Source: Sinorhizobium meliloti | GTDB taxonomy: Bacteria; Pseudomonadota; Alphaproteobacteria; Rhizobiales; Rhizobiaceae | Assembly: GCF_035610345.1 (NCBI RefSeq) | Contig: NZ_CP141215.1 | Span: forward strand, 214,960 to 278,959 | Reading direction: 5' to 3' | Length of the DNA: 64,000 bases | Shown: positions 22,296 to 64,000 of the stretch, piece by piece | Numbering within the stretch: position 1 is the first letter of the stretch | Layout: every line of letters starts with the position of its first letter | Translations under genes and position numbers: made by a program | The notes under the pieces: model-generated | The model's input: the letters and a program-made list of their open reading frames with translations, nothing else | Database searches by the model: none | What the model was told of the DNA's origin: nothing

Positions 22296-22322
22296 GCATG
22301 TCCGGTCTTTTGGGGGCAACTC

Positions 22323-23103: not shown

Positions 23104-23180
23104 CGATCACCCCTGGGCGCAATGCTGTTGCGCTTCATGTGTCCGAACAACCCAAATCATTGAACAACAAAGGAAGCGAG

Positions 23181-27867: not shown

Positions 27868-28827
27868 TTATCCCGATGCGCGGACTCTCGAGCGTGAGGC
27901 CGAGGCGACTTCGGGTAAGATTGTGGGCCATTTACCGCTTTCGGCAAGCAAATGAACTACTTCCGTGATCAAGGCGCGAACCGCGTTCACCTCGACGGAA
28001 CGCTCGTCTTTCGGATTGACGGCAAGGACAACCGTACGTGTGATGGCCGGTTCAACAATTCTCACGATCCGGATCTGGCCAAGACAGACCTCGCGCTGAA
28101 TGGCTGATGGCGTCAGTATCGAATAGGCTTTTCCGTCCATGACCATGCTGATGATGGACGACAGGGAATCGACTTCGAATCGCACATCCAATGTGCAACC
28201 GTGCAGAGCCACGACATCCGCCACCGAGCGCCGAACGTTGTTGACTCGCATTGGGACAGCCAACGGATATGCATGCAAATCGGCCAGCCTGATTGTTTCT
28301 TCGAAAGGAGGTTGGTCGGGAGGCCCAACTAGACAAAATTCCTCGCTGGCAAGCACTTCAGCGTCGCCCGGCCTTTCAACCGTTTTATAGAGGATTGCAA
28401 TGTTGAAACGACCAGCGGCCATCCACTCCTCAACCGGACCGCTCATCCCTTCGACGATCTTAAGCGAAACTCTCGGGAGCCTCTCTTTCGCAATCGCGAG
28501 TAGCTCAGCTACCATTACGCGGGCTGCCCCAGAAGGGATCCCAATTGTAACTTCTCCGCTCGGTGATTTCACCTTACTGGTCAATTCCTGTTCGGCTCGG
28601 CTCACCTGGTCCAAGATAATGCGCGCGTGATTTAGCAACTTCGAGCCTGCTGAAGTAAGCGTGACTCCAGTTCTATCCCGAATCAAAAGCTGCGTCCCAA
28701 AACCTTCTTCCATTTGCCGCACATGAAGACTGAGCGCGCTCTGCGCGACATTCAGTTGCGCTGCGGCTTTCGTGAAGCTGCCCGCCTCTGCAACGCCAAC
28801 GAAATATTTAAGTTGTCTAAATTCCAC
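27868..28827 (-). CDS. LysR-family transcriptional regulator
   Basis: A 319-residue regulator. N-terminal winged helix-turn-helix (MEFRQLKYFVGVAEAGSFTKAAAQLNVAQSALSLHVRQMEEGFGTQLLIRDRTGVTLTSAG), linker helix, then the periplasmic-binding-like effector domain from about residue 90 (GEVTIGIPSGAARVMVAELL). It resembles Cbl/NAC-type LysR proteins. It is divergent from the methylaspartate gene cluster and probably controls it; the effector is likely a pathway acid such as mesaconate (inference). A decayed second LysR copy lies inside the cluster at 32780. Confidence 0.92.
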   Translation of the reverse strand: MEFRQLKYFVGVAEAGSFTKAAAQLNVAQSALSLHVRQMEEGFGTQLLIRDRTGVTLTSAGSKLLNHARIILDQVSRAEQELTSKVKSPSGEVTIGIPSGAARVMVAELLAIAKERLPRVSLKIVEGMSGPVEEWMAAGRFNIAILYKTVERPGDAEVLASEEFCLVGPPDQPPFEETIRLADLHAYPLAVPMRVNNVRRSVADVVALHGCTLDVRFEVDSLSSIISMVMDGKAYSILTPSAIQREVCLGQIRIVRIVEPAITRTVVLAVNPKDERSVEVNAVRALITEVVHLLAESGKWPTILPEVASASRSRVRASG

Positions 28828-29333: not shown

Positions 29334-30683
29334 TTGGCATCACAAGGTGAGAGTAGTGCATGCTTTTTTAGCCAAACATCCACGAAATCGGCAGCCAAAG
29401 TGGCGCAGCCCAACTCGAGTACAAAAATCGTGCAAATCAAAGATGTCATTCTCACGCGCGGCGACGGTGCTTTTTTCTATGACGACCAGGCCGCCATTCG
29501 CGCTGGAGTTGATCATGATGGATTCCTGTACGTTGGCGAGCCGCTGACACCTGGGTTCCCCTCGATACGTGTGCCAGCATCCTGCCTGAGCGTCGGCCTT
29601 GTGTTGGCGGACGACACCATCGTCTGGGGCGACATGATGGGCGTCCAGTACTCGGGTGCGGGTGGTCGTGATCCACTCTTCGATGCCGACCAAATCAAGG
29701 CGCTCACGTCCCAGGTCGTCGTTCCGCGGCTCTTAAAAGCCGATGCAAGCCGCTTTCTCGACGCTTGCTCTCTGACATTCCAGTGGTTTGAAGGCAAGCG
29801 GCTGCCACTGTCCATTGAGTATGGCGTCAGCCAAGCCCTACTAAGCGCCGCTGCGCATGCAGCAAGATCCACGATGAGCGAGGTGGTCTGCCGTGAATTC
29901 AGCTTGCCACTTCCGCGAGGTCGCGTTCCGATCTATTGCCAAAGCGGAGATGCTCGCGAGATCAACGTCGACAAGATGATCTTGAAAGGCGTGGACGTGC
30001 TCCCGCATGGCTTGATCAATTCCCGCAAAAAGTTCGGTGCAGACGGCCAGACATTCATTGAGTTCGTGAAATGGGTCGCGCGGCGGGTGCGCGAAATCGG
30101 CCCGGCTGACTATAGTCCGGTGCTGCATTTCGATGTTTACGGCTGGATCGGCTTTGAGATTGGTTCAGATCCCCAGACGATCGCCGACTTCATCTGTAAG
30201 GTCGCGGACATGGTACCAGAATTCATCCTGAATATTGAGTCCCCCGCGGATTTCGGTTCTACAGCGGCGCAGGTCGACGATTATGCGCGGATCGTCGCAA
30301 TCTTGGATGCCCGCGGTGGACGAGCACGCGTCGTCGTCGATGAGCAGTGCAACACTCTTGACGATGTCCGCCTCTTCGCCGAGGCCAAGGCCGCCCATCT
30401 CATTCAGATCAAGGCTCCCGATGTCGGATCGATGGCAGACACTGCACGTGCCGTTCTCATATGCAAAGAAAACCGCGTCGGAGCCTATGTAGGTGGAAGC
30501 TGCAGTGAAACGGACATTTCTGCTCGCGCCACGGTTCACGTATCCGTAGCCACGCAAGCCGACATGATGCTTGCCAAGCCTGGGATGGGCGTCGACGAGG
30601 GTTTGACTATCATCGGAAACGAACAAAATCGGCTGCTTGCTGTGCTTGAACGCGGTCGAACGCAAACCGGAAACAATGCATAG
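29334..30683 (+). CDS. mal: Methylaspartate ammonia-lyase
   Basis: Converts L-threo-3-methylaspartate to mesaconate and ammonia (EC 4.3.1.2), an enolase-superfamily enzyme. Up to 449 residues with YDDQAAIRAGVDHDGFLYVG at the start and the conserved LKGVDVLPHGLINS (H225), metal ligands D267 in HFDVYGWIG, E302 in LNIESPADFG and D336 in VVVDEQCNT, catalytic base K360 in QIKAPDVGS, and YVGGSCSETDISAR. The TTG at 29334 gives about 30 residues more than known enzymes; GTG at 29400 or 29429 is a possible start. First gene of the catabolic operon. No glutamate mutase is present, so methylaspartate must come from elsewhere. Confidence 0.93.
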   Translation: MASQGESSACFFSQTSTKSAAKVAQPNSSTKIVQIKDVILTRGDGAFFYDDQAAIRAGVDHDGFLYVGEPLTPGFPSIRVPASCLSVGLVLADDTIVWGDMMGVQYSGAGGRDPLFDADQIKALTSQVVVPRLLKADASRFLDACSLTFQWFEGKRLPLSIEYGVSQALLSAAAHAARSTMSEVVCREFSLPLPRGRVPIYCQSGDAREINVDKMILKGVDVLPHGLINSRKKFGADGQTFIEFVKWVARRVREIGPADYSPVLHFDVYGWIGFEIGSDPQTIADFICKVADMVPEFILNIESPADFGSTAAQVDDYARIVAILDARGGRARVVVDEQCNTLDDVRLFAEAKAAHLIQIKAPDVGSMADTARAVLICKENRVGAYVGGSCSETDISARATVHVSVATQADMMLAKPGMGVDEGLTIIGNEQNRLLAVLERGRTQTGNNA

Positions 30684-30694
30684 GAAGCGCCCAG

Positions 30695-31864
30695 ATGAGA
30701 AAAAGTCTCAAGGATATTACGGTGGTGGCTGTCGAACAGGCAGTCGCGGCACCATACGCTTCCTCGCGCCTGGCGGATGCGGGGGCGCGGGTCATCAAGA
30801 TCGAGAGACCAGAAGGCGATTTTGCTCGCAATTATGACAAGTTGGTGCGGGGGCAGAGCGCCTATTTCGTCTGGCTGAACCGGGGCAAAGAATCTGTCTG
30901 CCTGGATCTGAGATTGGAATCTGATCGGGCGGTCTTGGACGCCCTCATCGCGCAGGCAGACGTCTTCATTCAGAACCTGAAACCGGGAAGTATTGACAAG
31001 CTTGGTTTTGCATCATCCGATCTTCGTCGCCGTTTTCCCCGCCTCATTGCCTGCGACATCTCCGGTTTCGGTGAGGGCGGTCCGTTCTCCCATCTCAAGG
31101 CCTACGATCTCATCGTCCAGGCTGAGTCGGGACTGAGCGCGATCACGGGGACCCAGGAAGGCCCAGCCCGCGTCGGTGTCTCGGTCTGCGACATCTCAGC
31201 AGGAATGACCGCGCACGCCGCGATTTTGGAAGCGCTGTTCCATCGGGAGCGAACCGGTGAGGGCGCATCTATCCAAGTTTCGTTGTTTGATGCGATTGTC
31301 GACTGGATGAATGTTCCAGTTCTTCAACACGACTACAGCGACTACCAAACCGTTCGAGCCGGTGTAAACCATCCATCGCTGGCGCCCTACGGTGCGTATC
31401 GTTGTACCGACGGGAAGGATGTCATCTTCTCGGTCCAGAACGATCGCGAGTGGGTCAATTTTTGCGCGATGTTCCTGAAGAGACCTGAGCTGACGCGCCA
31501 GCCCGGCTTTGCGGACAATATGGAACGAGTAGGGATGCGCAAGCTTCTCGACGAAATAATCAAGGCCCGCTTTTCTGAACTCTCGAGCGACGGGGCGATG
31601 CTTGAGCTTGAGGCGGCAGGCCTGGCCTATGGGCGATTGCGCGACATTCCGGCTGTCTCGAAGCATCCACATGTGCGCAGAACATTGGTAGATACCCCGG
31701 AGGGGGCCATCGACGTTATAGCGCCTGCTGCAATTTTCAATAATGAGAAGCCCTCGTTCGGCCCTGTACCTGCGCTTGGAGCCCACACGACGTCTGTCAA
31801 AGAAGAGCTTTGCTGGTGGCCGGGAAGACCTAGTGAAGGATTTTTCCATACCGGCCAGGATTGA
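30695..31864 (+). CDS. Family III CoA-transferase (CaiB/BaiF type)
   Basis: A 389-residue family III CoA-transferase, 11 bases after mal. Conserved features: LADAGARVIKIERPEGDFAR (N-terminal Rossmann part), LNRGKESVCLDL, FGEGGPFSHLKAYDLIVQAESGL and the catalytic Asp166 in GVSVCDISAG, the residue that forms the acyl anhydride. In this context it most likely activates citramalate or mesaconate with CoA from succinyl-CoA or acetyl-CoA. Substrate is inferred from neighbours only. Confidence 0.9.
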   Translation: MRKSLKDITVVAVEQAVAAPYASSRLADAGARVIKIERPEGDFARNYDKLVRGQSAYFVWLNRGKESVCLDLRLESDRAVLDALIAQADVFIQNLKPGSIDKLGFASSDLRRRFPRLIACDISGFGEGGPFSHLKAYDLIVQAESGLSAITGTQEGPARVGVSVCDISAGMTAHAAILEALFHRERTGEGASIQVSLFDAIVDWMNVPVLQHDYSDYQTVRAGVNHPSLAPYGAYRCTDGKDVIFSVQNDREWVNFCAMFLKRPELTRQPGFADNMERVGMRKLLDEIIKARFSELSSDGAMLELEAAGLAYGRLRDIPAVSKHPHVRRTLVDTPEGAIDVIAPAAIFNNEKPSFGPVPALGAHTTSVKEELCWWPGRPSEGFFHTGQD

Positions 31865-31868
31865 TGTC

Positions 31869-32738
31869 ATGACCGATAGCCCTCGCTGGAGATCGTTGCT
31901 GTTCGTTCCCGCACATAGCCGCAAATATGTGGCCTCGGTCCATGAACGTGGCGCTGATGGCGTCATCTTGGATCTCGAAGATTCGGTGCCAATTGACCAG
32001 AAGATTGATGCGCGGCGTGAACTTCCTGACAGTATCGTCTCGGTGGGACGTCAGGGCGGATCCGTCTTGGTTCGCGTCAATCATGATTTGTGCACTTTGG
32101 CAGCCGATCTCAACGCCTCTATCATACCGGGTGTCGATGCAATTGTTCTTCCCAAGGTAGAATCGAAGGACTGGGTGGCAGAGGTGGCCGACGCCGTCAC
32201 TCGGTTAGAAAAAGCGAGAGGAATTCCCCATGGAACGGTGCGGTTTCTGGCCCAGATCGAGAGCCCCCGTGGCTTGCAACGCCTGCCAGAGATAGCATCA
32301 TCTGATGCAAGGATGGCTGCCTTGGCCCTCGGCCCTGAGGATTTCTGTGCGGCCGTGGGTGGCTCTCCCGAGTTCGATCTTCTCTTAGCGCCAAATTTGC
32401 AGGTGCTTTTTGCGGCAAGGGCAGCAGGATTGCTTCCCTTGGGCTTTGTAGGCTCCATCGGGGAGTTCCAGGACAGCCAGAAACTGCGACAAACTTCCGT
32501 CCATGCGCGCCGGCTCGGTTTCGCGGGCGCCTTGGCTATTCATCCAGCCCAGGTCACCATTTTCAACGAGGCTTTCTCGCCGAGCGCAGATGAGATCGAG
32601 TGGGCATTAAAAATTGTCGATGCGCAGCAAGACGCGTTCAAGAGCGGACTTGGTGCGTTCGCTGTCGATGGAAAAATGGTGGACCCACCGGTGATCCAGC
32701 GCGCGCACCAAGTCTTGGCTCTTGCCGGAAAACCATAA
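31869..32738 (+). CDS. CitE-like CoA-ester lyase (HpcH/HpaI family)
   Basis: A 289-residue TIM-barrel lyase of the CitE/citramalyl-CoA/malyl-CoA lyase group: RSLLFVPAHSRKYVASVHERGADGVILDLEDSVP (metal and substrate loop), QIESPRGLQRLPEIA with the metal Glu, and ALGPEDFCAAVGGSPEFD. The ATG at 31869 lies 4 bases after the CoA-transferase stop, so the genes are coupled. Expected reaction: (S)-citramalyl-CoA to acetyl-CoA and pyruvate; a beta-methylmalyl-CoA lyase is an alternative. Confidence 0.9.
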   Translation: MTDSPRWRSLLFVPAHSRKYVASVHERGADGVILDLEDSVPIDQKIDARRELPDSIVSVGRQGGSVLVRVNHDLCTLAADLNASIIPGVDAIVLPKVESKDWVAEVADAVTRLEKARGIPHGTVRFLAQIESPRGLQRLPEIASSDARMAALALGPEDFCAAVGGSPEFDLLLAPNLQVLFAARAAGLLPLGFVGSIGEFQDSQKLRQTSVHARRLGFAGALAIHPAQVTIFNEAFSPSADEIEWALKIVDAQQDAFKSGLGAFAVDGKMVDPPVIQRAHQVLALAGKP

Positions 32739-32779
32739 TGTTGTTTGGTCGGGAACACTCGCGGCTGGGCGCTGCGTAT

Positions 32780-33130
32780 CATGGAACTCAGGCAACTTAG
32801 ATGTTACATCGGCGTGGTGGAGCTGTCAGTTTCACCCTCCCTCAGCCTGCATATTCGACAACTGGAGAGGGTTTTGGTTCCCAGGTACTCTTGCGCGAGA
32901 GAAAGGGTGCCGGGGTGACGGATTCAGGACAAAAAATTGCTTGCGCACGCGCGCACGATACTCACAAGAAATCCAGCTCGTGGAAGCTTAACTCACCAAC
33001 AAGATTGGCTGCCTGGCGGCCGAGCGACGATCAGCATTCCTCCAGTCGCTGCACAAGTACTGGAGGATGGTGGAGACCAGGTGACTGCCAGCGGACACAA
33101 GCGCCTGAAACAGGAATTTGATAGATTTTT
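32780..33130 (+). pseudogene. Decayed LysR regulator copy
   Basis: From ATG 32780 the DNA reads MELRQLRCYIGVVE, then after a deletion SLSLHIRQLERVL, then in a new frame SQVLLRERKGAGVTDSGQKI and ACARAHDT/LAHARTIL, corresponding to residues 1-75 of the intact LysR at 27868 (MEFRQLKYFVGVAE, ALSLHVRQMEEGFGTQLLIRDR). Later pieces (GRATISIPPVAAQVLEDG) match its effector domain start. Several deletions and frameshifts; non-functional. Confidence 0.8.
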
Positions 33131-33299
33131 CCTTCTCAGGTTGGTGGTAGTTGGTGGTATCTAGGTTCGAGATGGACCTCGACAATATTCGATATTTGAC
33201 TGCACGCTTTGATCACGATGAAGTCAGTCAGGTTCCGGGCGAACTCTGTGGACGCGAACTCTGCTCGTGCCGGACATCTTCGTGCAATTGGAGCAAGTT

Positions 33300-34721
33300 A
33301 TGTCCTACACCAGAAGCTACCAGCTCTTCATCAATGGTAGCTGGCGAAACGCCAGCGGTGAGGCGCCCATCCCGGTTATCAGCCCGGTTACGGAAAAACC
33401 AATTGCTGCGGTCGCTTCAGCAACTGCGCAAGATCTCGACGACGCGCTCGGGGCAGCTGACCGCAGCGGCAAAGCCTGGGCGATGTTGCCTCCGAACCAA
33501 CGCGGCGCGATTCTCATCAAAGCCTCGAAATTGCTCGCAGAAAAAATCGACGCCGCTGCAAAAGATCTGTCCGATGAACAGGGAAAAACCATCGCCGAGG
33601 CGACCGGTGAATTTAAGCGGACAGTTGAGACGTTCGAGTGGAACGGTACACATGCCGAACGGCTTTGCGCTGTTTCACAGATCGACCAAAACCGGACGAT
33701 AAAGCCCGAACCTGCCGGCACCGTCGCAGCGTTTACCCCCTGGAACTACCCGGCCGTGCTGATTGCGCGAAAGTTGGCGCCCGCGCTGGCAGCTGGCTGC
33801 ACAGTCATCCTCAAGGGTGCCGAGGAAACGCCCAGTGCTGCCGTCCATATTGTAGAAGCATTGGAAGAAGCAGGCCTTCCCGACGGCGTTGTCAACCTGG
33901 TGTTTGGTGTGCCGGCGAAGGTCTCTACGCATCTTCTCGCATCGCCCATTGTGAAAATCTTGACATTCACCGGCTCGACCCCGGTTGGAAAGCATCTTGT
34001 AAAGGCGGCAGCCGACAATTTGCAGCGCTGCATTCTGGAGCTCGGAGGACACTCGCCGGTGGTCGTGTGCGAGGATGCAGACCTTGCGACGGCGGTGCCT
34101 GCCATTCTCGAATACAAATTCGAATGTGCAGGGCAAAGCTGCAATGCGCCAAGCAGAATCCTTGTTGCTCGTGCCATCTATGCCGATTTTGTGGCTCGTC
34201 TTACGAACGCCGCCCGTGCGATTAAAATTGGCGCCCCGGATGACCCGGCGACGGAGATGGGACCCATGGCCAACGCGCGCCGTATTGAAGCAATGCAGCG
34301 CTTGGTTAAGGACGCGGTTGAACGCGGCGCCCGCCTTGAACTCGGCGGTGCTCGCCTCGACCAGGAGGGCTACTATTGGCCACCCACGATCCTCACAGAA
34401 GTGTCGAGCGATGCCAAAGTGCTGCACGAGGAGCCATTTGGTCCGATTCTAACGGTTGCGCCCTTTGATGACATTCAGGAGGCAATCGACCAAGCCAATG
34501 CCACAGAGTACGGTTTGGCAGCTTACTTCTTTACGGAACAACCGGAGACCAAAGAAGCGCTCGCAAACGGTTTGTCGGCAGGTGCGATCAGCGTAAACTT
34601 CCTCAAGGGTGTTTCTGCCGATTCCCCCTATGGCGGCATCAAACAGAGCGGTTATGGATATGAAGGGGGCGAACATGGATTCCGAAGCTTCCAAAACCTG
34701 AAGCTGATCAATGAATTGTGA
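33300..34721 (+). CDS. NAD(P)-dependent aldehyde dehydrogenase
   Basis: A 473-residue aldehyde dehydrogenase with the full set of motifs: PWNYPAVLIARKLAPALAAGC, LTFTGSTPVGKHL (cofactor loop), catalytic Glu247 in LELGGHSPVVV, nucleophile Cys281 in FECAGQSCNAPSR and EEPFGPILTVAPF. The ATG at 33300 follows GGAG; the frame upstream (33267) belongs to other sequence. It resembles succinate-semialdehyde dehydrogenases and, with the class III aminotransferase at 37.1 kb, could oxidise an omega-semialdehyde to the acid. Exact substrate unknown. Confidence 0.92.
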   Translation: MSYTRSYQLFINGSWRNASGEAPIPVISPVTEKPIAAVASATAQDLDDALGAADRSGKAWAMLPPNQRGAILIKASKLLAEKIDAAAKDLSDEQGKTIAEATGEFKRTVETFEWNGTHAERLCAVSQIDQNRTIKPEPAGTVAAFTPWNYPAVLIARKLAPALAAGCTVILKGAEETPSAAVHIVEALEEAGLPDGVVNLVFGVPAKVSTHLLASPIVKILTFTGSTPVGKHLVKAAADNLQRCILELGGHSPVVVCEDADLATAVPAILEYKFECAGQSCNAPSRILVARAIYADFVARLTNAARAIKIGAPDDPATEMGPMANARRIEAMQRLVKDAVERGARLELGGARLDQEGYYWPPTILTEVSSDAKVLHEEPFGPILTVAPFDDIQEAIDQANATEYGLAAYFFTEQPETKEALANGLSAGAISVNFLKGVSADSPYGGIKQSGYGYEGGEHGFRSFQNLKLINEL

Positions 34722-34739
34722 TTGCTACGGTGACATCCG

Positions 34740-36284
34740 ATGAGTGAGCATGCACGGACGATACGGGGAGCGGACATCGTCAAGAGCGTTGCCGACGCCC
34801 TACAATACATATCCCATTTTCATCCACCCGACTACATTCGATATCTGTCGAAAGCGTACGACCAAGAGCGCAACCCAGCAGCGCGCAACGCGATTGGGCA
34901 GATTCTGCTCAATTCGCGGATGTCGGCATTTGGTCGACGTCCCATATGTCAGGACACCGGCCTTGTGGTGGTCTTTGCCAAAGTGGGCATGAATGTTCGC
35001 ATTGATGCCGAGGGCAGTTTCGCAGCGCTTGTGAATGAAGGCGTACGACGAGCTTATCTCGACGAATACAATCCACTGCGCCCCTCGATTGTAGCCGACC
35101 CGATTGGAACAAGGACCAACACAGGCGACAACACGCCAGCTGTTGTACATGTCGAACTCGTGCCTGGCAGCGAAATCGAGATCACCGTCGCTGCCAAAGG
35201 CGGCGGATCGGAAAACAAGGCGCGATTTGCAACGCTGAACCCTGGAGCCTCTGTCGCAGACTGGGTTGTTGATACGGTCACGTCTTTGGGGAGCGGCTGG
35301 TGTCCCCCCGGTCTAATTTCGATTGGGATCGGTGGTAGCGCCGAAAAGGCAATGTTACTGGCGAAGGAGGCTATGAACGAACCCATCGACATCGCAGACT
35401 TGATGGCGAGGGAAGCGTCCACGCCCGAAGAAGCGCTGCGAATGGAGCTGTACGAGAGGATCAACGCACTTGGTATTGGAGCGCAGGGCCTCGGTGGACT
35501 GACCACCGTCGTCGATGTGAAAGTGGCATCCTTCCCGACACACGCGGCGTCCAAGCCCGTCGCTCTCATTCCACAATGTGCCGCCAATCGGCACCTGAAA
35601 TTCACACTGGACGGGTCGGGACCGATTGAGCTTGTTGCCCCCGATCTTAGTGCATGGCCCAACATTGATGGTGCAGACCTCAAAGCGGTCAACGTGAAAC
35701 GGGTGAACCTGGATACGCTTACCAAGGAGGAAACAGCATCATGGCGGACAGGGGAGACCCTGCTGCTGTCTGGGAAAATGCTGACAGGCCGTGACGCGGC
35801 TCATAAACGGATGGCCGTCCTCATTGACGAGGGAAAGCCACTACCCGTCGATCTTAGTGGGCGGGTGATCTACTATGTCGGTCCCGTTCGCGCTGTAGGC
35901 AGTGAGGTGGTTGGACCGGCAGGGCCTACTACATCCAGCCGTATGGACGCGTTTGCGGAGAAGATCCTTGCAGGAACCGGCCTCTTCGCGATGGTGGGCA
36001 AGGCGGAAAGAGGTTCAGCAGCGATCGACGCTCTTGTACGACACAAGGCGCCGTATCTCATCGCTGTCGGTGGGGCGGCGTACCTGATTTCGAAATCGAT
36101 CACGTCTGCGCGCGTTGTTGCTTTCGAGGATTTGGGAATGGAGGCGGTCTACGAATTCGAGGTGCACGATATGCCGGTCATTATGGCTGTCGACGTGTTG
36201 GGCAACTCCATCCATACCACAGGGCCAGCCGAGTGGCGCAGTCGAATGGCAGCTGATTGCATTGCCCGCAGCATCGAGATCTAA
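34740..36284 (+). CDS. Class I fumarase-like hydratase, probable mesaconase
   Basis: A 514-residue iron-sulfur hydro-lyase of the class I fumarase family, alpha and beta regions fused. The three 4Fe-4S cysteines are present: C70 in RRPICQDTGLVV, C188 in GSGWCPPGLISIGIGGS and C280 in PQCAANRH. The beta region contains GRDAAHKRMA and YYVGPVRA...GPTTSSRMD. Class I fumarases can hydrate mesaconate to (S)-citramalate, and the family member in Burkholderia xenovorans does so. Next to mal, CoA-transferase and CitE this points to mesaconase. It follows the ALDH gene by 18 bases. Confidence 0.9.
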   Translation: MSEHARTIRGADIVKSVADALQYISHFHPPDYIRYLSKAYDQERNPAARNAIGQILLNSRMSAFGRRPICQDTGLVVVFAKVGMNVRIDAEGSFAALVNEGVRRAYLDEYNPLRPSIVADPIGTRTNTGDNTPAVVHVELVPGSEIEITVAAKGGGSENKARFATLNPGASVADWVVDTVTSLGSGWCPPGLISIGIGGSAEKAMLLAKEAMNEPIDIADLMAREASTPEEALRMELYERINALGIGAQGLGGLTTVVDVKVASFPTHAASKPVALIPQCAANRHLKFTLDGSGPIELVAPDLSAWPNIDGADLKAVNVKRVNLDTLTKEETASWRTGETLLLSGKMLTGRDAAHKRMAVLIDEGKPLPVDLSGRVIYYVGPVRAVGSEVVGPAGPTTSSRMDAFAEKILAGTGLFAMVGKAERGSAAIDALVRHKAPYLIAVGGAAYLISKSITSARVVAFEDLGMEAVYEFEVHDMPVIMAVDVLGNSIHTTGPAEWRSRMAADCIARSIEI

Positions 36285-36465
36285 GTGGAGGTCCTTTATT
36301 CCCGATTGCAGCTGACGAGCGACTGCAAATTACCGCGCATATGCGAGAACAGAACGTCGCAACGGTATCGAAAAATACGGAGAAGCACTGACCTGCCATT
36401 TCGGCGTGGATTTCACCTTGCGGAAAAGTTTTGTGACGAGATGCTACGGGGCTTCGCAGGAAACA

Positions 36466-36996
36466 ATGAGAGATAAAAATCCCGCTACCCGCCTGGACAA
36501 GTGCGACCTGCGAATATTGTCTGAGATCCAGACGGACGGTCGGATCTCTAAAAGCGAACTCGCGAAGCGCGTCCATCTCTCCACGTCAGCCTGCTCCGAA
36601 CGGATGCGGATGCTGGAGACTTCCGGAATTATCGAAGGCTATCATGCGAGGCTCAGTCCGGCCCTGATTGGAGGGCTGCTTTATATAATGGTGGAGGTGG
36701 TCCTGGATCACCATCGGCTGGAGGACCAACGGCACTTTGAGAGCGCGATTGTAAACATTCCTGAAATCCTCGATTGCTGGGCAATTGGAGGTCGAGTGGA
36801 CTATCTCATGCGTGTCGCATCGTCATCAATGGCGGCCTATCAAGCGTTCATGGAACGATTATTGGAAGCCGGGCTTGGTATCGATCAGTACTACAGCCTG
36901 GTCGTCACAAAGCCGGTCAAGGCAAATTCTCCGATCCCGCTGTCTAGCCTTCTACTTGACGGCAGGACAGGCGTTTTTGCGGACAAGCCGCCATAA
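36466..36996 (+). CDS. Lrp/AsnC-family transcriptional regulator
   Basis: A 176-residue regulator. N-terminal helix-turn-helix (LDKCDLRILSEIQTDGRISKSELAKRVHLSTSACSERMRMLETSGIIEGYHARL) and a C-terminal RAM domain (LYIMVEVVLDHHRLEDQRHFESAIVNIPEILDCWAIGGRVDYLMRV). AGGA lies before the ATG; the upstream frame to 36406 is not coding-like. It sits between the hydratase and the aminotransferase and probably responds to an amino-acid substrate. A second regulator besides LysR suggests two inputs to the cluster. Confidence 0.9.
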   Translation: MRDKNPATRLDKCDLRILSEIQTDGRISKSELAKRVHLSTSACSERMRMLETSGIIEGYHARLSPALIGGLLYIMVEVVLDHHRLEDQRHFESAIVNIPEILDCWAIGGRVDYLMRVASSSMAAYQAFMERLLEAGLGIDQYYSLVVTKPVKANSPIPLSSLLLDGRTGVFADKPP

Positions 36997-37120: not shown

Positions 37121-38527
37121 GTGACGTTGACCAATTTGGGAACTGAACAGGTGCAGGAGAAGGATCGGAACTATGTTTTCCATCCATCGACGCACCTCGC
37201 CAAACACAGCCGGGGAGAAACGCCCAACCGCATCATGGCGGGCGCAGAAGGCGTATATATCTGGGATACCGAAGGCAAAAGAAGCCTTGATGGCTTCGGT
37301 GGCCTTTACTGCGTAAACATGGGATACGGCTGCACGGAGATCGCTGACGCCATCAGCAAACAGGCGCACGAGCTACCATTCGCTCACGTCTACGCCAGCC
37401 AAGGGACCGCTCCCGTTGCCCGGTTGGCCGAAGAGGTGGTCGAATATTTCGGTCAGAATATGCGCAAGGTTTTCTTCGGCTTGTCGGGATCCGATGCGAA
37501 CGAGACCAACATCAAACTGGTCTGGTATTACAACAACATCCTGGGTCGCCCCCAAAAGAAAAAGATAATTTCCCGTCACAGGGGTTATCACGGCTCTGGC
37601 TTGGTCACCGGCAGCCTTACAGGCCTGCCGTTTTTCCACCAGCTCTTCGATCTGCCGCTCGATCTTGTGCGACACACGACGACGCCGCATCATTACCGAC
37701 AAGCGACAGGACAAGAAAGCGAAGAGGACTTCTCAAAGCGCTGCGCATGTGAACTGGAGGCGCTCATTCTGGCTGAAGGCCCCGACACAGTCGGCGCGTT
37801 TATTGGCGAGCCCGTTTTAGGTACCGGCGGCATAATACCTCCTCCCACCGGATATTGGAGCGCCATTCAAGCGGTGCTGGACAAATATGATATCCTGCTG
37901 ATCGCAGACGAGGTTGTGTGTGGCTTTGCGCGGACGGGTGAAAAGTTTGGCTCGCACCTCTACGGCATGCGGCCGGATTTCGTCACCATCGCCAAGGGGC
38001 TTAGCTCGGCCTATCTCCCTATCTCAGGCTCAATTATTGGCGATCGCGTGTGGTCCGTCTTGGAACAGGGCACCGAAAAACACGGAGCGCTTGGCCATGG
38101 CTGGACATATTCCGGCCATACTCTTTGTGCGGCAGCGGCTTTAGCAAATGTCGAGGTACTACATAAGCGAAATATTCTTGAGCACGTTCGTGACGTGGGA
38201 CCGTACTGGCACGCTCGAATGAAAGCCGAATTGGAAGGACATCCGATTGTCGGTGAGGTCCGTGGCGTCGGGATCCTTTCAGCTGTCGAATTCATGAAAG
38301 ACCCTAAGGCGCGCATCCCATTCGAGTCGGAACTTCAAGTTGGCGCTCGTGCGGCTGCAGTCTTGCTGGAAAACGGCGTTATCGCTCGCGCCATGCCTCA
38401 TGCCGATACGCTTGGATATGCTCCGCCGCTGATCATCACGCGGGCCGAGGTTGACATCATTGTCGATGCTACGGCACGGGCTGTGGAAACAACCTATGGC
38501 TCTTTGAAAAGAGAGGGCGCGCTTTAA
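37121..38527 (+). CDS. Class III aminotransferase
   Basis: A 468-residue PLP-dependent omega-aminotransferase: VYIWDTEGKRSLDGFGGLYCVNMGYG, FGLSGSDANETNIKLVWYYN (phosphate-binding loop), SRHRGYHGSG, D263 in LLIADEVVCGFARTG and Schiff-base Lys292 in TIAKGLSSAYLP, then GHGWTYSGHTLCAAAALAN. GTG at 37121 follows AAGGAAAA. It groups with beta-alanine, GABA or putrescine-type transaminases using pyruvate or 2-oxoglutarate; ectoine-pathway diaminobutyrate transaminases are also class III. It could feed an omega-semialdehyde to the ALDH at 33.3 kb. Confidence 0.92.
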   Translation: MTLTNLGTEQVQEKDRNYVFHPSTHLAKHSRGETPNRIMAGAEGVYIWDTEGKRSLDGFGGLYCVNMGYGCTEIADAISKQAHELPFAHVYASQGTAPVARLAEEVVEYFGQNMRKVFFGLSGSDANETNIKLVWYYNNILGRPQKKKIISRHRGYHGSGLVTGSLTGLPFFHQLFDLPLDLVRHTTTPHHYRQATGQESEEDFSKRCACELEALILAEGPDTVGAFIGEPVLGTGGIIPPPTGYWSAIQAVLDKYDILLIADEVVCGFARTGEKFGSHLYGMRPDFVTIAKGLSSAYLPISGSIIGDRVWSVLEQGTEKHGALGHGWTYSGHTLCAAAALANVEVLHKRNILEHVRDVGPYWHARMKAELEGHPIVGEVRGVGILSAVEFMKDPKARIPFESELQVGARAAAVLLENGVIARAMPHADTLGYAPPLIITRAEVDIIVDATARAVETTYGSLKREGAL

Positions 38528-43085: not shown

Positions 43086-44690
43086 ATGACGATCTCACGA
43101 CGCAATCTCTTTAAAGCTGGCATTGCCGCCGGGACGGCCTTTGCGATGCCATCGATCCTGCGAGCTCAGACGACTGCCGCCGACCGGACAGTCCGCATGG
43201 TCTTAGGCGACCTTCAAGTCTTCGATCCCATAGTTACGACGTCTGATATCACCATGAATCATGCCTTGGCGATTTACGACACGTTGTTCGCTTTGGATTC
43301 CGATCTTGTGGCGCAGCCGCAAATGGTGGGAAAGTGGGAGGTATCCGACGACAAGAGGACCTATACTTTCGAGCTGCGCGAGGGCCTGGGCTGGCACGAC
43401 GGCACCCCCGTTACTGCGGCCGACTGTGTCGCCTCCATTCGTCGCTGGGGCCAAGTTGATCCTTCTGGACAACTGATTATGGAGCGGGCCGCGGACCTCG
43501 CGAGTAAGGACAAAACCACATTCACTATCACGCTTAAGGAGCCGCTGGGGTTGCTGATCGACCTACTGGCGGCTTCGTCCGGTCGTCCCCTTTACGTTAT
43601 GCGCGAGCAGGACGCAACTCTCCCCTCAACGGAGCAAGTGACAGCAAATATTGGATCGGGTCCGTTCAAGTTCAATGCGGCACTGGCCAAGCCCGGTTCG
43701 ACCGTTACGTACGATCGCAACGAACATTACGTACCTCGCCAAGAGCCGGTGAGCGGCTACGCCGGCGGTAAGGTCGTGAACGTTGATCGTGTCGTCTGGG
43801 AAAATATCTCCGATTCGCAGACGGCGGTTGGGGCCTTGCAGGCCGGTGAGATCGACTTCTTGCTTGAGCCACCTGCCGATCTATATCCAGCGATTGAGAG
43901 CGATCCAAACCTTGAACTCAAGGTTCTGGTCAATTCAGGTATGGACTACTATGTGAGGATCAATTTCCTGCAGCCGCCGTTCGACAATGTCAAGGCACGC
44001 CAAGCGTTACTTCATCTCATTGATCAAGAGGCCTTTTCAGCAGTCGTGTCGGCCGACCCAAAATACAGCGGCGTCGTTACCTCGCTTTTTGGGAAGACCG
44101 CCTATTCGAATGACGAAAACACGGGATGGTACAAGAAGGGTGGCGACCCTGAGAAGGCCAAGCAGTTGTTCAAAGAGGCCGGATATGCCGGCGAGAAGGT
44201 CCTCATACTCGCCCCGACGGACTGGGCGGAGGGCAACAATAGCTCCCAGCTACTTGCGAATGCGTTGCAGAAGATTGGGGTCAAGGCAGAACTTGCGCCA
44301 ATGGCCTGGGGTGAACTGGCTACTCGCCGGGGGAATAAGGGCCTCACGGCGAACGGCGGCTGGAGTCTCTTCATTTCATCTCAGTCGGACTTCAGCCTCG
44401 GCAATCCGATTGGCTCCCCATTCTTCCTTGCCAATGGCGAAAACGCTTGGTACGGCTGGCCGAAGAGCGATGAATTTGAAACCCTGCGGGCGAAGTGGGC
44501 TGATATCGAAGCCCTTGAAACACGCAAGCAACTAGCGCGCGAGATGCAGCGCGTTTGGTGGGAGTTCGTAGGGACCGTTTTCCTGTGCCAAACTTTGACG
44601 CCAACTGCTCATCGCAAGACACTTAACGGCCTCATCAGTACTGAAGGCAGTTATCGCCCGATGTGGAACATGGAGAAGGTCCAGGCCTGA
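43086..44690 (+). CDS. ABC transporter substrate-binding protein, peptide/opine type (SBP family 5)
   Basis: A 534-residue periplasmic binding protein. The N-terminus MTISRRNLFKAGIAAGTAFAMPSILRAQ has a twin-arginine-like SRRNLFK motif and a signal peptide. The family 5 body includes YDTLFALDSDLVAQPQMVGKWEVSDDKRTYTFELREGLGWHDGTPVTAADCVASIRRW and GSGPFKFN. It captures di/oligopeptides or similar compounds. The downstream permease is only a remnant, whereas matching ATPases lie at 61.9-64 kb on the other strand, suggesting one operon was split. Confidence 0.93.
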   Translation: MTISRRNLFKAGIAAGTAFAMPSILRAQTTAADRTVRMVLGDLQVFDPIVTTSDITMNHALAIYDTLFALDSDLVAQPQMVGKWEVSDDKRTYTFELREGLGWHDGTPVTAADCVASIRRWGQVDPSGQLIMERAADLASKDKTTFTITLKEPLGLLIDLLAASSGRPLYVMREQDATLPSTEQVTANIGSGPFKFNAALAKPGSTVTYDRNEHYVPRQEPVSGYAGGKVVNVDRVVWENISDSQTAVGALQAGEIDFLLEPPADLYPAIESDPNLELKVLVNSGMDYYVRINFLQPPFDNVKARQALLHLIDQEAFSAVVSADPKYSGVVTSLFGKTAYSNDENTGWYKKGGDPEKAKQLFKEAGYAGEKVLILAPTDWAEGNNSSQLLANALQKIGVKAELAPMAWGELATRRGNKGLTANGGWSLFISSQSDFSLGNPIGSPFFLANGENAWYGWPKSDEFETLRAKWADIEALETRKQLAREMQRVWWEFVGTVFLCQTLTPTAHRKTLNGLISTEGSYRPMWNMEKVQA

Positions 44691-45916: not shown

Positions 45917-47053
45917 ATGACACTGCCTATACAGTTCCCGCCGCCCTTTCCCATCCAAGAATACCGCTCGCGTCTGGCGGCATTGCGATCCTTCATGGCC
46001 GAACGAAAGGTTGACCTGCTCATCGTCAACCAGCACGAACATATGGAATATTTCGCGGGGTATGCGCCAACGGCGGCCATGTATCAAGCCATCTTAATTC
46101 CACTTGACGGCGAGCCGGTCGCTGTAATCCGTGCTCTCGATGCCTCGGTCTTCAGTGAGACTAGTTGGCTAACCGACTATGTTGCGTTCGCTGATAACGA
46201 AGATCCAATTGAAGTGGCGTCAAATACGATTGTTTCGCTCGGGCACGGAGGCTCCGCAATAGGTGTTGAGCGCGATAGCTATTTTTTCACAATCAATCGA
46301 GCGGTCGCTTTCGAAGGTTTCCTCCCCAATGTCAGGTTCGTTGATTTCTCCGCTATCCTGTGGCTTATGCGGCAGGTTAAATCGCCTCTCGAACTTGCCT
46401 GCCTCCAAGTAGCCGCGGGCATTTGTGATCGGGCGACAATGGTGGGCTTCGAGGCGGCTGAGGCTGGTGTCAGTGAGCGCGAGGTCTTAGCGGTGATGAT
46501 TTCCGAGGCGTTGCGCAACGGAGCGGACAACGCGCAGCTCGTTCAGCTGGTATGTGGACCCCGATCAGGATCCCTGCACGGCGCGCTCGGTAATCGCATT
46601 TTGGCAGAGGGCGACATCGTGCACGCAGAGCCGGTACCGCATTTTCGTGGCTATACCTCGCGGATGATGCGTCCGAAATCGATCGGGGCTCCAACCGATG
46701 AACAAATGCTAATCGCAGAAGCGACGATCCGGGTCCAGGATGAGCAGTTCCGAGCGATGAAGCCCGGGGCGGAAGCAAAAGAGGTGGACAAGATCTTACG
46801 TGAGGGCATGTTGTCCGCTGGATTGCGCGACCGCTACACCAATGTCACCGGCTATACACTCGGCCTAAAGCACCCACCCCGTACAAGTGACTTCACGCGT
46901 GTTTTCCTCGCCGACAGCGATTGGAGGCTTCTGGAAAATCAGGTGTTTCACATGTACACCGGGGCAGGTGGCATGGCGTTCAGTGAAACAATCGTCGTCA
47001 CGCCTGAGGGAGGTAGACGATTAACAAAAATGGAGCGCAGGCTGTTCTCCTGA
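45917..47053 (+). CDS. M24-family hydrolase (ectoine hydrolase/creatinase-like)
   Basis: A 378-residue pita-bread-fold protein. N-terminal creatinase-type domain (about 1-145), then the M24 domain from MRQVKSPLELACLQVAAGICDRATMVGFEA. The aminopeptidase metal site is not conserved: where metalloenzymes have D-x-G...Y-x-x-D-x-T-R, this reads HAEPVPHFRGYTSRMMRP, with both Asp replaced. Retained features are VTGYTLGLKHPP (His) and GMAFSETIVVTPEG (Glu), as in ectoine hydrolase DoeA and creatinase, which act on C-N bonds without two metals. Probably opens a cyclic amidine or cleaves a non-peptide C-N bond. Confidence 0.85.
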   Translation: MTLPIQFPPPFPIQEYRSRLAALRSFMAERKVDLLIVNQHEHMEYFAGYAPTAAMYQAILIPLDGEPVAVIRALDASVFSETSWLTDYVAFADNEDPIEVASNTIVSLGHGGSAIGVERDSYFFTINRAVAFEGFLPNVRFVDFSAILWLMRQVKSPLELACLQVAAGICDRATMVGFEAAEAGVSEREVLAVMISEALRNGADNAQLVQLVCGPRSGSLHGALGNRILAEGDIVHAEPVPHFRGYTSRMMRPKSIGAPTDEQMLIAEATIRVQDEQFRAMKPGAEAKEVDKILREGMLSAGLRDRYTNVTGYTLGLKHPPRTSDFTRVFLADSDWRLLENQVFHMYTGAGGMAFSETIVVTPEGGRRLTKMERRLFS

Positions 47054-56419: not shown

Positions 56420-57583
56420 TCAAGCCCCAAGTGCCCTCTCTACCAGCTTCACCCAGTAGGCGATGCCATAGGGAAGCGCCTCGTCGTTGAAATCGAAAGC
56501 AGAATTATGCCACGTAGGTGTCAGTCCATTGCCTATCATCATATAGCTTCCCGGCCGGACGGCTGACATGTAGGAGAAATCTTCCGAGCCCATCGACAAG
56601 GGATAGTTGTCGCTGACAGAGGCGCTTGTAACAAGGTCAGTGGCCGCCTTGATCGCAAGCTCCGTCTCAGCCTGATGGTTGAAGGTAACCGGCTCGAGGC
56701 TTCGATACGCGAACTCGTAATTACCGCCGAAGCCACGTGTGATTGCTTCAACACAGTCACGTATTCTCTGTCCAGCTGATGCTCCTAGTTTCTCCGACGC
56801 AGTGCGAACAGTACCCTTCAGGGCAACACGGTCCGGGATCGTGTTATAGCCCTCGCCAGCGTGAAAGCTGGTGACTGTCACCACAAGCGAATCAAGTGGA
56901 TCGATAGCGCGGGACACAATAGTCTGCAGCCCCAAGACGATTTGAGACGCCACGACGATTGGGTCGACGCACTTGTGGGGTTCCGACGCATGTCCCCCTG
57001 TGCCTAAAATCATGATGTCAAACTCATAGAGCCCAGCAAATAAGGCACCGTACCGAGTTGCGAACGTCCCAATTTCTAGACTTGGATCGCAATGCAACCC
57101 AAACACCTGTGAGATGCCGAAACGCTCCATCACACCTGCTTCTACCATCTTCTTGCCACCCAGGCCCTCTTCTTCGGCTGGTTGGAAGATCAGCGCGACC
57201 GCGCCCTTGAAATTTCTCGTTCTTGAAAGGTGCTTCGCGGCACCAAGCAGCATCGCTGTGTGTCCGTCGTGGCCACATGCATGCATCTTGCCCGGTATGG
57301 CGGATGACCACGGTTTATTTGACGCTTCATGAATCGGCAGGGCATCCATGTCGGCCCTAAGCCCTATAGTGGGCCCTTCCCCGCCTCGGCCCTCAATGAG
57401 GGCTACGATACCAGTTTCGGCGATACCGGTTTCGATGTGGTTGATTCCGAACGACGCCAGTTTCTCTGCAACAAACTGAGCAGTCTTCTCCAGCCGATAT
57501 CCAAGCTCCGGATTTTGGTGAAGATAGCGGCGCCAGGCCGTAGTTTCGCTGTGCAGGTCAATCTGGTCGCTAAACAAGTTCAC
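56420..57583 (-). CDS. M20D-family amidohydrolase (aminoacylase/hippurate hydrolase type)
   Basis: A 387-residue dinuclear metallohydrolase. Metal-site motifs: TIGLRADMDALPI, MHACGHDGHTAMLLGAAKHL, FQPAEEEGLGGKKM (catalytic Glu) and GLHCDPSLEIGT, then the dimerisation domain (FDIMILGTGGHASEPHKCVDPIVVASQIV) and GSEDFSYM. It removes acyl or amide groups from N-acyl amino acids. The GTG at 57583 follows GAGGAGCG. No signal peptide, so it acts on imported substrate. With CapA and the peptide ATPases it forms the second half of the uptake and hydrolysis block. Confidence 0.92.
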   Translation of the reverse strand: MNLFSDQIDLHSETTAWRRYLHQNPELGYRLEKTAQFVAEKLASFGINHIETGIAETGIVALIEGRGGEGPTIGLRADMDALPIHEASNKPWSSAIPGKMHACGHDGHTAMLLGAAKHLSRTRNFKGAVALIFQPAEEEGLGGKKMVEAGVMERFGISQVFGLHCDPSLEIGTFATRYGALFAGLYEFDIMILGTGGHASEPHKCVDPIVVASQIVLGLQTIVSRAIDPLDSLVVTVTSFHAGEGYNTIPDRVALKGTVRTASEKLGASAGQRIRDCVEAITRGFGGNYEFAYRSLEPVTFNHQAETELAIKAATDLVTSASVSDNYPLSMGSEDFSYMSAVRPGSYMMIGNGLTPTWHNSAFDFNDEALPYGIAYWVKLVERALGA

Positions 57584-60468: not shown

Positions 60469-61869
60469 TCAAGACGACGAACCACGCTCCAGGGTTATTG
60501 TACCAATGTCATCATCAATGACAATTCGAGTCGCGAAGGGTGCAGAGAGCTTCTGAAGACGTTCGAGAATGGCCCTCGCTTGCGGCCCGGTTACGAGCCG
60601 TGGTACGCCGCGGTTTGCGAACCTCTTTGAATAGCCCAATTCGATCGGGTACAGTCGCAACTGGACCAGTTGATTCTGCTCAAAACGGCTTACCGTAATG
60701 ATGCTCTCGTAAAAAATTGTCTGAGAGAGGGCGCCCACAAAGCCATCGACGGTAGGATAACCCTTGGCTTCTTCGTCGACCGTCACCTCGGCATCAGTGT
60801 CTCGCCGCGGGTCCTTGCCGTACGCCTCGAACATATCCGCCCCGACCGGAGTTCGCAGATCGTCGTAGAAAAAATTCCCCAAGCCATAGAGGATCGGTCG
60901 GCCCTTATAGATCTCGATCCCACGAATTAGGTGTGGACCGTGCCCGACATAAGCGTCTGCTCCCGCGTCGATGAGCTTATGCGCCAAGGATTGCTCATAA
61001 TCCGGTGGATGTTGGCTAACCTGATGAGTCCAGTTAGGCTCGTGCCCGTGATTGGTGACAACGCAGAAATCGGAAAACTGTTTGCCCCGACGAACATTTC
61101 GCAAGATTTCAGCGACGTCACTCGGGCTAGGCTCGTAGCTGTAGCCAGCTTCGTCACCCGCTTTGAAAATCGCTCCTGCGACTACGACGCGGGCCGGATC
61201 GTTATCGTCTGATCTAGTACCAGGCAGCGTCGCGCGCAGCTGCCGTAAATTTTTCAGAATTTCCGGAGGGACGACGATGCTCTCTGTCAAACGGAGCGGG
61301 TTCAGTCCTGGCCTGCCTGGAGCCTCTCCGGCAGGGTCACATGCACGAAACATCGGCCCAAATGTCGTGCCGAACGACACCAACGCGACTCGACCACGTG
61401 CAGTCTCCAAAAAGCGAGCGGCGCCGGCTTGCGCAAGGTTTTCGCCTGCACCTGCATGGACGATCCCACTCTCATCCAATATGCGGCTCGTCTCGCGCAT
61501 GCCTTCAATGCCCCAATCAAGCGTATGATTGTTTGCGCGGCTCATAAGGTTGAACCCCATAGCCTTCAGATCAGGTCCAAGCTCCGGAACGCTGATGTGA
61601 TACGCACCCCCGTGCTCCGCCTGCGGGCTTCCGTCGAATGAGCGAATGTCGAAGATTAGAGTTTCCATGTTGCCGAACGTGGCATCGGCGTCGCGAAGGA
61701 TTTGGACGATCTCATCAAAACCCGGATGGTTGCCTTCAGTCAGCGGCCGAGACAAGATGAGGTCGCCCACTGCCACCATCGTGAAGCCGTCAGCAACGTT
61801 CGTATCAATCGAACCCACCGTGTCGTAGCCGTCACCGTGGGTCGGGTGCTCGTGTGAATATTCTTCCAT
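60469..61869 (-). CDS. CapA-family protein (poly-gamma-glutamate-type metallophosphatase fold)
   Basis: A 466-residue CapA-family protein: TMVAVGDLILSRPLTEGNHPGFDEIVQIL, ATFGNMETLIFD, LMSRANNHTLDWGIEGMRETSRILDESGIVHAGAGENL, FCVVTNHGHEPNWTH and AGADAYVGHGPHLIRGIEIYKGRPILYGLGNFFYDD. These are the Asp, Asn-His and His-x-His positions of the calcineurin-like fold. There is no signal peptide or membrane anchor, unlike capsule PgsA, so it probably acts in the cytoplasm. Members next to peptide ABC genes are uncharacterised; hydrolysis or modification of a glutamyl compound is inferred. AGAGGAGAAGAGG precedes the ATG; it lies 52 bases after the ATPase gene. Confidence 0.9.
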   Translation of the reverse strand: MEEYSHEHPTHGDGYDTVGSIDTNVADGFTMVAVGDLILSRPLTEGNHPGFDEIVQILRDADATFGNMETLIFDIRSFDGSPQAEHGGAYHISVPELGPDLKAMGFNLMSRANNHTLDWGIEGMRETSRILDESGIVHAGAGENLAQAGAARFLETARGRVALVSFGTTFGPMFRACDPAGEAPGRPGLNPLRLTESIVVPPEILKNLRQLRATLPGTRSDDNDPARVVVAGAIFKAGDEAGYSYEPSPSDVAEILRNVRRGKQFSDFCVVTNHGHEPNWTHQVSQHPPDYEQSLAHKLIDAGADAYVGHGPHLIRGIEIYKGRPILYGLGNFFYDDLRTPVGADMFEAYGKDPRRDTDAEVTVDEEAKGYPTVDGFVGALSQTIFYESIITVSRFEQNQLVQLRLYPIELGYSKRFANRGVPRLVTGPQARAILERLQKLSAPFATRIVIDDDIGTITLERGSSS

Positions 61870-61921: not shown

Positions 61922-62989
61922 TCAGCGGTGCACGCCAGATGCTCGACCGGCTGACGGTGCCTCTACGGCATGTAGCGAAGAATTCGCCGTCGCAGCGGAA
62001 TGGTTCGGCATGCCTGTAGCCGGAGCGCGGACATGGCAGGCCACGGCGCGGCCGTCCGCCATCGGCATCAAAGGCGGGAGGTCTACACGGCAACGCTCGA
62101 CGGCGAGTGGACAGCGCGGATGAAAGGCGCATCCGCTCGGCGGGTTGATCGGGCTTGGCACCTCGCCATCTACGGGCGCTTCAAGCCGAATGTGTGCGGG
62201 ATCCGGCACAGGTGCCGCTGCGATTAGCGCCTCGGTGTAGGGGTGGACCGGCTTTGCGAACAGCACCTCGCATGCGGCCAGTTCCACGATCCGGCCGAGA
62301 TACATGACCGCGACGCGATGCGCGATATGCTCAACAACGCCGAGGTCGTGCGAGATGAAAACAAAGGCGATGCCCATCTGCTGTTGCAGATCCATGAGCA
62401 GGTTCAAGATTTGTGCCTGCACAGAGACATCAAGGGCCGAGACCGCCTCGTCGGCGATAATGAGCGAGGGCCTAAGGGCCAGCGCCCGCGCGATGCCCAG
62501 CCGTTGGCGCTGGCCACCCGACAACTCGGACGGAAGCCTATGCATCATTTCAGGCGCCATCCCAACCTTCTGGAGGAGGTCCGCAGCAAGCGCGATGCGC
62601 TGCTTGCGGCTAAGACGCTCGAAATTTTCCACAGGTTCGGTGATAATCTGGCCGGCGGTGAGGCGCGGGTTCAGCGACGAGTAAGGATCCTGAAACACCA
62701 TCTGCATCCGACGTCGATGCGCGCGAAGCTCGTGCTTACTGAGGCCTGCAATATCGGTCCCCTCGATCCGGACGCGTCCGCCAGTCGGATCGGTAAGCCG
62801 CATCAAGAGCCGTGCGATGGTGGATTTGCCGCAACCGGATTCGCCGACGATGCAGAGCGTCTCACCGGCCTCGACGAAAAAAGACACATCATCCACTGCT
62901 CGCACCACAGAGAATGGCTTCTTCAAGAACCCCGCACCAATCGGATAATGCTTGGAAAGATTTTCAACTGTTAGCAAAGGATTGCTCAT
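61922..62989 (-). CDS. Oligopeptide-type ABC transporter ATPase (DppF/OppF)
   Basis: A 355-residue ATPase: Walker [16 protein letters not shown]-loop [15 protein letters not shown], signature [16 protein letters not shown], Walker [13 protein letters not shown] and H-loop [12 protein letters not shown]. The OppC-type C-terminal extension contains [15 protein letters not shown] with cysteines. Note ADEAVSALD rather than ADEPTSALD. ATG at 62989 overlaps the DppD stop by 4 bases. Works with DppD to power import. Confidence 0.94.
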
Positions 62990-63993: not shown

Positions 63994-64000
63994 GTCAGCG

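Follow-up and report, generated by a model that had tools for sequence, protein, structure and literature searches.

What does a rhizobial operon with a methylaspartate ammonia-lyase (MAL) degrade when its genome gives no match to glutamate mutase, the enzyme expected to supply that lyase? We addressed this question for a locus of Sinorhizobium meliloti lying in a 64,000-nucleotide stretch of contig NZ_CP141215.1, the whole of which is called the window here. The genome comprises 4 contigs (6.63 Mb), and the window sits on the 338 kb contig C4, probably a plasmid. Genes were called by an open reading frame (ORF) scan combined with Pfam and NCBIfam profile scans of the window; homologous stretches are labelled L### and sampled genomes G###. 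An earlier note had reported four genes at 29334..36284, namely MAL, a class III CoA-transferase (CoAT), a CitE-like lyase and a class I fumarase (FUM), with active-site residues in each. All four were present as open frames with family matches, and the residues were found (11 of 14 sites in MAL, motifs in the other three). The note overlooked an aldehyde dehydrogenase (ALDH) and a decayed LysR gene inside this range, as well as an Lrp/AsnC regulator and an aminotransferase just downstream. The operon represents the known methylaspartate pathway with its head swapped, and we regard it as an even call that it works as two catabolic modules, the head (aminotransferase and ALDH) feeding the tail (MAL, CoAT, CitE-like lyase and FUM) via 3-methylaspartate.

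MAL scored 620.6 bits against TIGR01502 (cut-off 286.15), and its PDB matches consisted of MALs only (1kcz, 3zvi, 3zvh and 1kko); its start is uncertain (TTG 29334 or a later GTG, the first 34 codons containing no ATG). Relative to solved MALs the catalytic residues were conserved: eleven of the checked sites were kept (Q73, Q172, H194, D238, E273, D307, Q329, K331, Y356, C361 and L384), and three were substituted (F170Y, A171C and T360S). Among 85 surveyed MAL ORFs, a few being copies of one gene, L384 was present in 85/85 and Y356 in 84/85, while position 170 was Tyr in 79 and Phe in 6, and position 360 was Ser in 84/85. According to the accessible part of PMC7241714, the pocket for the 3-methyl group is formed by Y356, L384 and F170, a T360S mutant retains near-native kinetics, and the Km for aspartate is 42-141 fold above that for 3-methylaspartate. 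Since the pocket residues Y356 and L384 are kept, the MAL sequence favours a 3-substituted aspartate; the methyl pocket is largely kept and speaks for such a compound as the predicted substrate.

Glutamate mutase was sought in the genome and around MAL in relatives. The E component (PF06368) gave 0 matches in the 4-contig genome, and tblastn with GlmS, GlmL and GlmE at E 1e-5 found no match in any of 87 stretches, comprising 80 genome loci (the best 80 of 96 stretches, mostly from Mesorhizobium, so that counts among them are not independent), five loci on plasmids, one further genome and the window. The absence of the mutase, as previously noted, therefore holds, and glutamate was rejected as the substrate. 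Likewise, GlmE was missing from 7 of the 8 genomes that had a MAL match, the MAL of one of these (G229) being only 50% identical; the eighth (G021), which belongs to the same genus, has the window-type MAL side by side with a second MAL, 43% identical, which adjoins its GlmE.

Mutase-linked loci with an otherwise similar tail were found in Rhizobium sullae (L123), Ensifer adhaerens (L124) and Gemmobacter fulvus (L128), where an annotated row of glmS-(glmL)-glmE-MAL-CoAT-CoA ester lyase is followed by LysR and a fumarase-type hydratase, LysR also standing between hydratase and lyase in R. sullae. Compared with these three, the window proteins were 42-47% (MAL), 45-48% (CoAT) and 42% (CitE-like lyase) identical, and the upstream LysR of the window gave no match in them. 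FUM was 59-62% identical to the hydratases of R. sullae and E. adhaerens, 29% to that of Gemmobacter and 61-63% to those of L125-L127. It is the sole match to itself in its own genome, which also encodes a class II fumarase elsewhere.

The FUM alignment revealed three cluster cysteines together with the GPTTSxRMD and K motifs. CoAT contains YDLxxQ and the CitE-like lyase QIES/GPED, which we take to be active-site motifs. According to PMC4682846, E. coli O157:H7 encodes FumD in a cluster together with MAL and glutamate mutase; this enzyme is a mesaconase/fumarase that favours mesaconate 2-3 fold, and no mesaconate activity was measurable for class II FumC. Because a like gene row follows glutamate mutase genes in three loci and the MAL methyl pocket is largely kept, the route proposed earlier is well supported as a prediction: the tail very probably takes 3-methylaspartate through mesaconate, (S)-citramalate and citramalyl-CoA to acetyl-CoA and pyruvate.

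We then placed the window MAL among its homologues. In a tree of 28 MALs (midpoint rooting), the 22 of window type formed one clade (support 0.996), with five mutase-linked MALs and an odd homologue from Rhizobium sp. 007 (L131, 8004-9272) placed opposite. F170Y was considered as a hallmark of the mutase-less clade and rejected, Phe occurring in 7/22. The Rhizobium sp. 007 homologue has V, L, T, F, Y and V at pocket positions 73, 170, 172, 356, 361 and 384; its neighbours include a gene of the octopine/nopaline dehydrogenase family and an ABC transporter, and it is probably not a methylaspartate lyase. A table in the accessible part of PMC4417242 lists a 3-methylaspartate ammonia-lyase in Neorhizobium galegae; the corresponding place in another N. 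galegae record holds an AtuA-family gene beside a fumarase, and a name mix-up of such a kind is reported for DUF1446 genes in the available text of PMC4682846. The N. galegae label is a mix-up of this kind.

The head showed kinship to ectoine catabolism. The aminotransferase was 57-61% identical to eight ectoine-operon Atf proteins and sister to them in a tree (support 1.0), followed by Bradyrhizobium MAL-side aminotransferases (0.992); the tree contains ectoine-operon, cluster and own-genome sequences only, so closer unsampled relatives are possible. All nine non-cluster relatives that we inspected sit in ectoine operons (8 by annotation, that of Halomonas by doeB match coordinates); these nine came from 36 listed among 1793 matches, and three of them had been pre-chosen for a nearby doeB. 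The Lrp/AsnC regulator was 38-49% identical to seven AsnC of ectoine operons. Ectoine is degraded to aspartate by DoeA, DoeB, DoeD/Atf and DoeC/Ssd (PMC5924519, in the part accessible). DoeB, EutB and EutC had no match in the window and DoeA matched at 27% only; ehu and eutA were not searched. Ectoine genes are present separately on contig C2 of the same genome: doeA, doeB, ssd and atf, which are 90, 77, 82 and 88% identical to those of Pararhizobium, and also eutB and eutC (asnC and ehu genes were not seen or not searched). The Atf of this set groups beside the S. meliloti Atf in the tree. Since the genome has this separate set, the cluster is probably not needed for ectoine and its aminotransferase probably serves something else. 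ALDH, Lrp/AsnC and the aminotransferase together suggest an amine or aldehyde precursor of 3-methylaspartate. The earlier view of the substrate was right on the missing glutamate mutase, but its preference for 3-methylaspartate, mesaconate or a conjugate had left these three genes out of account.

The operon unit recurs in Mesorhizobium, Bradyrhizobium and Microvirga. Across the 80 loci we counted MAL in 79 (coverage at least 70%), CoAT in 76, ALDH in 63, LysR in 58, CitE in 55, FUM in 55, Lrp in 47 and the aminotransferase in 21. Bradyrhizobium has a short form, aminotransferase-ALDH-MAL-CoAT, and two alphaproteobacterial metagenome-assembled genomes (L076 and L077) have ALDH directly before MAL without an aminotransferase of the window kind, a GMC oxidoreductase or zinc alcohol dehydrogenase (named by eye) lying nearby. 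The position of ALDH directly upstream of MAL in both settings fits an ALDH that makes the MAL substrate. In L079 and L080, MAL stands beside amidase, TonB receptor, peptide transporter and SHMT-like genes (named by eye), which may represent another, third type of head attached to this MAL clade. CapA was present in 5/80 loci. The AstE-like protein encoded upstream of MAL in relatives best matched the solved Mlr6093 (2qj8, 519.5 bits), followed by the N-acetyl-diaminobutyrate deacetylase 6twm (181.7 bits).

From the observed gene families, residues, gene order, lack of a mutase match and aminotransferase kinship we infer the following reactions, the precursor being the most tentative of all. 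Hydrolases that vary between loci would free a 3-methyl-branched terminal amine from an acyl conjugate or an ectoine-like ring, a candidate precursor being 3-methyl-2,4-diaminobutyrate or an acyl conjugate of it. The aminotransferase, as kin of 2,4-diaminobutyrate aminotransferase, would convert the amine to 3-methylaspartate semialdehyde, which ALDH would oxidize to 3-methylaspartate. MAL would then release ammonia to give mesaconate, the class I fumarase would hydrate mesaconate to (S)-citramalate, the class III CoA-transferase would form citramalyl-CoA, and the CitE-like lyase would split this into acetyl-CoA and pyruvate.

Several observations weigh against this two-module scheme. We know of no natural 3-methyl-diaminobutyrate or methyl-ectoine. 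Among the 52 loci with MAL, CoAT, CitE, ALDH and FUM, a full aminotransferase was found in 16, a partial one in 1 and none in 35; the lack of a full gene in the covered stretch of 36/52 otherwise complete loci speaks against an obligatory aminotransferase. E1-like or TIR/SLATT genes lie downstream instead in 23/52, and 12 have neither, in some cases where the stretch ends. The aminotransferase of L067 falls on another branch of the tree, and the Bradyrhizobium loci show no FUM or CitE nearby. The upstream hydrolases are variable (AstE/DoeB-like in 16, M20 in 11, and M24 of two kinds in 9 and 3 of 80), the M24 protein of the window is just 26-29% identical to DoeA, and ALDH is only about 38% identical to ectoine Ssd and hence probably not an Ssd orthologue. 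Furthermore, three NCBIfam families scored CoAT nearly equally, all below cut-off, so that its acyl substrate is not assigned, and malyl-CoA lyase and CLYBL-type PDB entries scored alike for the CitE-like lyase; PDB and NCBIfam scores do not separate the substrate classes of these two enzymes.

As side observations, the downstream genes comprise Prok-E2/ThiF (E1-like) or TIR-like and SLATT genes following Lrp, for example at 19117-20990 in L015 and 16459-17926 in L033.

These points bear on how the two-module scheme compares with its alternatives. The operon might simply use free 3-methylaspartate, mesaconate or a simple conjugate, for which the tail suffices, with the aminotransferase and ALDH as neighbours doing another job; the 36 loci without a full aminotransferase fit this, as do upstream hydrolases and transporters that differ from locus to locus. 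The placement of ALDH counts against it: the gene occurs in 63/80 loci, separates CitE from FUM within the conserved block and stands directly before MAL in three differently organised groups. We consider this explanation possible, on the unlikely side. Both the window and several loci have amidohydrolase, peptidase-type and peptide-type ABC genes around MAL, which would also suit a two-part conjugate, whose omega-amino acid half (beta-alanine, GABA or the like) would go to the aminotransferase and ALDH and whose methylaspartate half to MAL and the tail; the occurrence of panD and ATP-grasp ligase genes close to MAL in a few loci agrees with it. The closest kin of the aminotransferase, however, are diaminobutyrate aminotransferases of ectoine operons, and panD lies near MAL in just 2/80 genome loci; we rate the conjugate as clearly unlikely.

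The same kinship, shared by the AsnC-type regulator, could be taken to indicate a second ectoine operon, in which the head makes aspartate, MAL acts as an aspartase, and fumarate is converted via malate and malyl-CoA to acetyl-CoA and glyoxylate. A slow aspartate activity is known for MALs (PMC7241714, available part), and ehu transporter genes, together with doeA-type genes, adjoin MAL in L005. We judge this very improbable: the genome has its separate ectoine set, most of the MAL methyl pocket is conserved, glutamate mutase genes elsewhere precede a comparable tail, and aspartate requires no such tail. The two-module scheme, at even chances, is the preferred reading.

The features of the locus are compiled in Table 1. 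In six relatives the same genes were 64-88% identical at the protein level, and the ratio of non-synonymous to synonymous substitution rates (dN/dS) was 0.02-0.13 in the 24 of 40 gene pairs for which it was computable, dS being undefined (saturated) in 16; two further comparisons were unmatched. Because of this identity and the low dN/dS, the cluster is not a chance assembly.

Table 1 Features of the MAL locus and possible accessory genes in the window.
Feature	Position	Strand	Basis
LysR-type regulator, divergent from the operon	27868..28827	-	PF00126/PF03466; 78-79% to LysR of L061, L068 and L069
MAL	29334..30683	+	TIGR01502, 620.6 bits; solely MALs among PDB matches; pocket residues
Class III (CaiB/BaiF) CoAT, predicted to activate (S)-citramalate or mesaconate	30695..31864	+	PF02515
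CitE-like CoA-ester lyase, predicted citramalyl-CoA lyase	31869..32738	+	PF03328; in-frame ATG
Decayed remnant of the LysR gene found between CitE and ALDH in relatives	32781..33062	+	tblastn 34-35% over 110 columns, E 5e-6 and 1e-5
ALDH, SSADH-like	33267..34721	+	PF00171; GQSC and ELGG motifs; 63/80 genome loci; start GTG 33267 or ATG 33300
Fused class I FUM, predicted mesaconase	34740..36284	+	PF05681 and PF05683; 59-62% to fumarases of L124 and L123
Lrp/AsnC regulator	36406..36996	+	PF13412/PF01037; start possibly ATG 36466
Class III aminotransferase, sister of ectoine-operon Atf/DoeD	37121..38527	+	57-61% to eight Atf; tree support 1.0
Possible accessory: family 5 solute-binding protein (peptide type)	43086..44690	+	PF00496; relatives near MAL in L049, L075 and L082
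Possible accessory: M24 metallohydrolase	45917..47053	+	PF00557; 26-29% to ectoine hydrolase DoeA
Possible accessory: M20 amidohydrolase	56420..57583	-	PF01546; 61% to M20 upstream of MAL in L036
Possible accessory: CapA-like (PGA_cap) protein	60469..61869	-	PF09587; 88% to L049 copy
Possible accessory: two ABC transporter ATPases, second running past window end	61922..63999	-	ORFs, named by eye

We also asked how the cluster relates to symbiosis, the strain having been called a plant symbiont in the earlier note. This description is not supported for this genome, in which nifH and nodC gave only weak matches below cut-off. Among 296 genomes of the family, MAL (at least 70% identity) was present in 6, and nifH in 4 of these 6 versus 14 of the 290 others (Fisher p = 1.4e-4, post hoc); in 3 of the 4 genomes with both, the two genes share a contig and lie about 120-291 kb apart. 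Within the genus, 2 of 33 genomes had a MAL match, the one same-species genome having none. On the window side, positions 22300-23200 matched plasmid stretches of Sinorhizobium and Rhizobium (148 records), nif-type -24/-12 boxes were located at 22459, 22629 and 23088, a TGT-N10-ACA site preceding the 23088 box by 92 bases, and a decarboxylase-like ORF at 23139 was 94% identical to one on the 1.63 Mb plasmid of S. meliloti SM11. Because of the plasmid-matching stretch, the boxes and the SM11-like ORF, the contig appears to include parts of a symbiotic plasmid. Many relatives and the nif-type boxes of the window tie the cluster to symbiosis regions. The boxes (window 22300-24869) precede the Orn/Lys/Arg decarboxylase-like ORF, which adjoins integrase-like genes.

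As to control of the catabolic operon itself by NifA/sigma-54, no box was found ahead of the window MAL. A TGGCAC..TTGC-like stretch (TGGCAT in one) precedes the inner LysR in 8 loci, without a NifA site. Boxes of the -24/-12 type also stand ahead of 5/6 ATP-grasp ORFs of family c43 near MAL, 34 boxes being found over all stretches with no chance estimate, which may point to symbiotic regulation of a ligase located close to the catabolic genes. These c43 genes were seen in L014, L024, L027 and L051, those of L024 and L027 being near copies and that of L027 belonging to the D-Ala-D-Ala ligase C-terminal family; no c43-type ligase was found in the window. Ligase genes with sigma-54-like boxes near MAL are the reason for considering a rhizopine-like trade, in which some symbionts would make, under NifA control, a nitrogen-rich compound, exchanged within or near legume nodules and with a 3-methyl-branched diamino acid core, that their kin would eat by means of the operon; we consider such a trade very unlikely. 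Within term searches of the accessible parts of the Mesorhizobium loti NifA regulon paper (PMC3538637) and the proteome paper (PMC3750425), the cluster was not mentioned.

No account of such an operon was found among the literature matches listed. If the head feeds the tail, aerobic bacteria could reach 3-methylaspartate with no need of the B12-dependent glutamate mutase, and a dedicated route for a still unnamed nutrient would exist in several rhizobial genera. What else rhizobia feed on in nodule and rhizosphere thereby becomes testable with purified enzymes and a few candidate amines.

Comparison with known systems places the locus between three of them. To the ectoine catabolic operon (doeA/eutD, doeB/eutE, asnC, ssd, atf) it is linked by an aminotransferase sister to Atf and a regulator moderately similar to AsnC, but it has no DoeB, EutB or EutC match, its ALDH is probably not an Ssd orthologue, and aspartate would need no tail. 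Mesaconate use in Burkholderia xenovorans, by a class I fumarase, a CoA-transferase and citramalyl-CoA lyase (PMC4682846 and PMC12290011, in the parts accessible), has the same predicted steps from mesaconate onward, to which the window adds MAL and the predicted amine/aldehyde head. With the mutase-linked methylaspartate pathway of Clostridium, the E. coli O157:H7 fumD cluster and the loci of R. sullae, E. adhaerens and G. fulvus, the window has MAL in common. The alphaproteobacterial loci among them further share with it, similarly arranged, CoAT, a CitE-like lyase, LysR and a hydratase of the class I fumarase type. The window differs in that a glutamate mutase match is missing, ALDH, Lrp/AsnC and the aminotransferase stand in its place, and MAL belongs to a sister clade.

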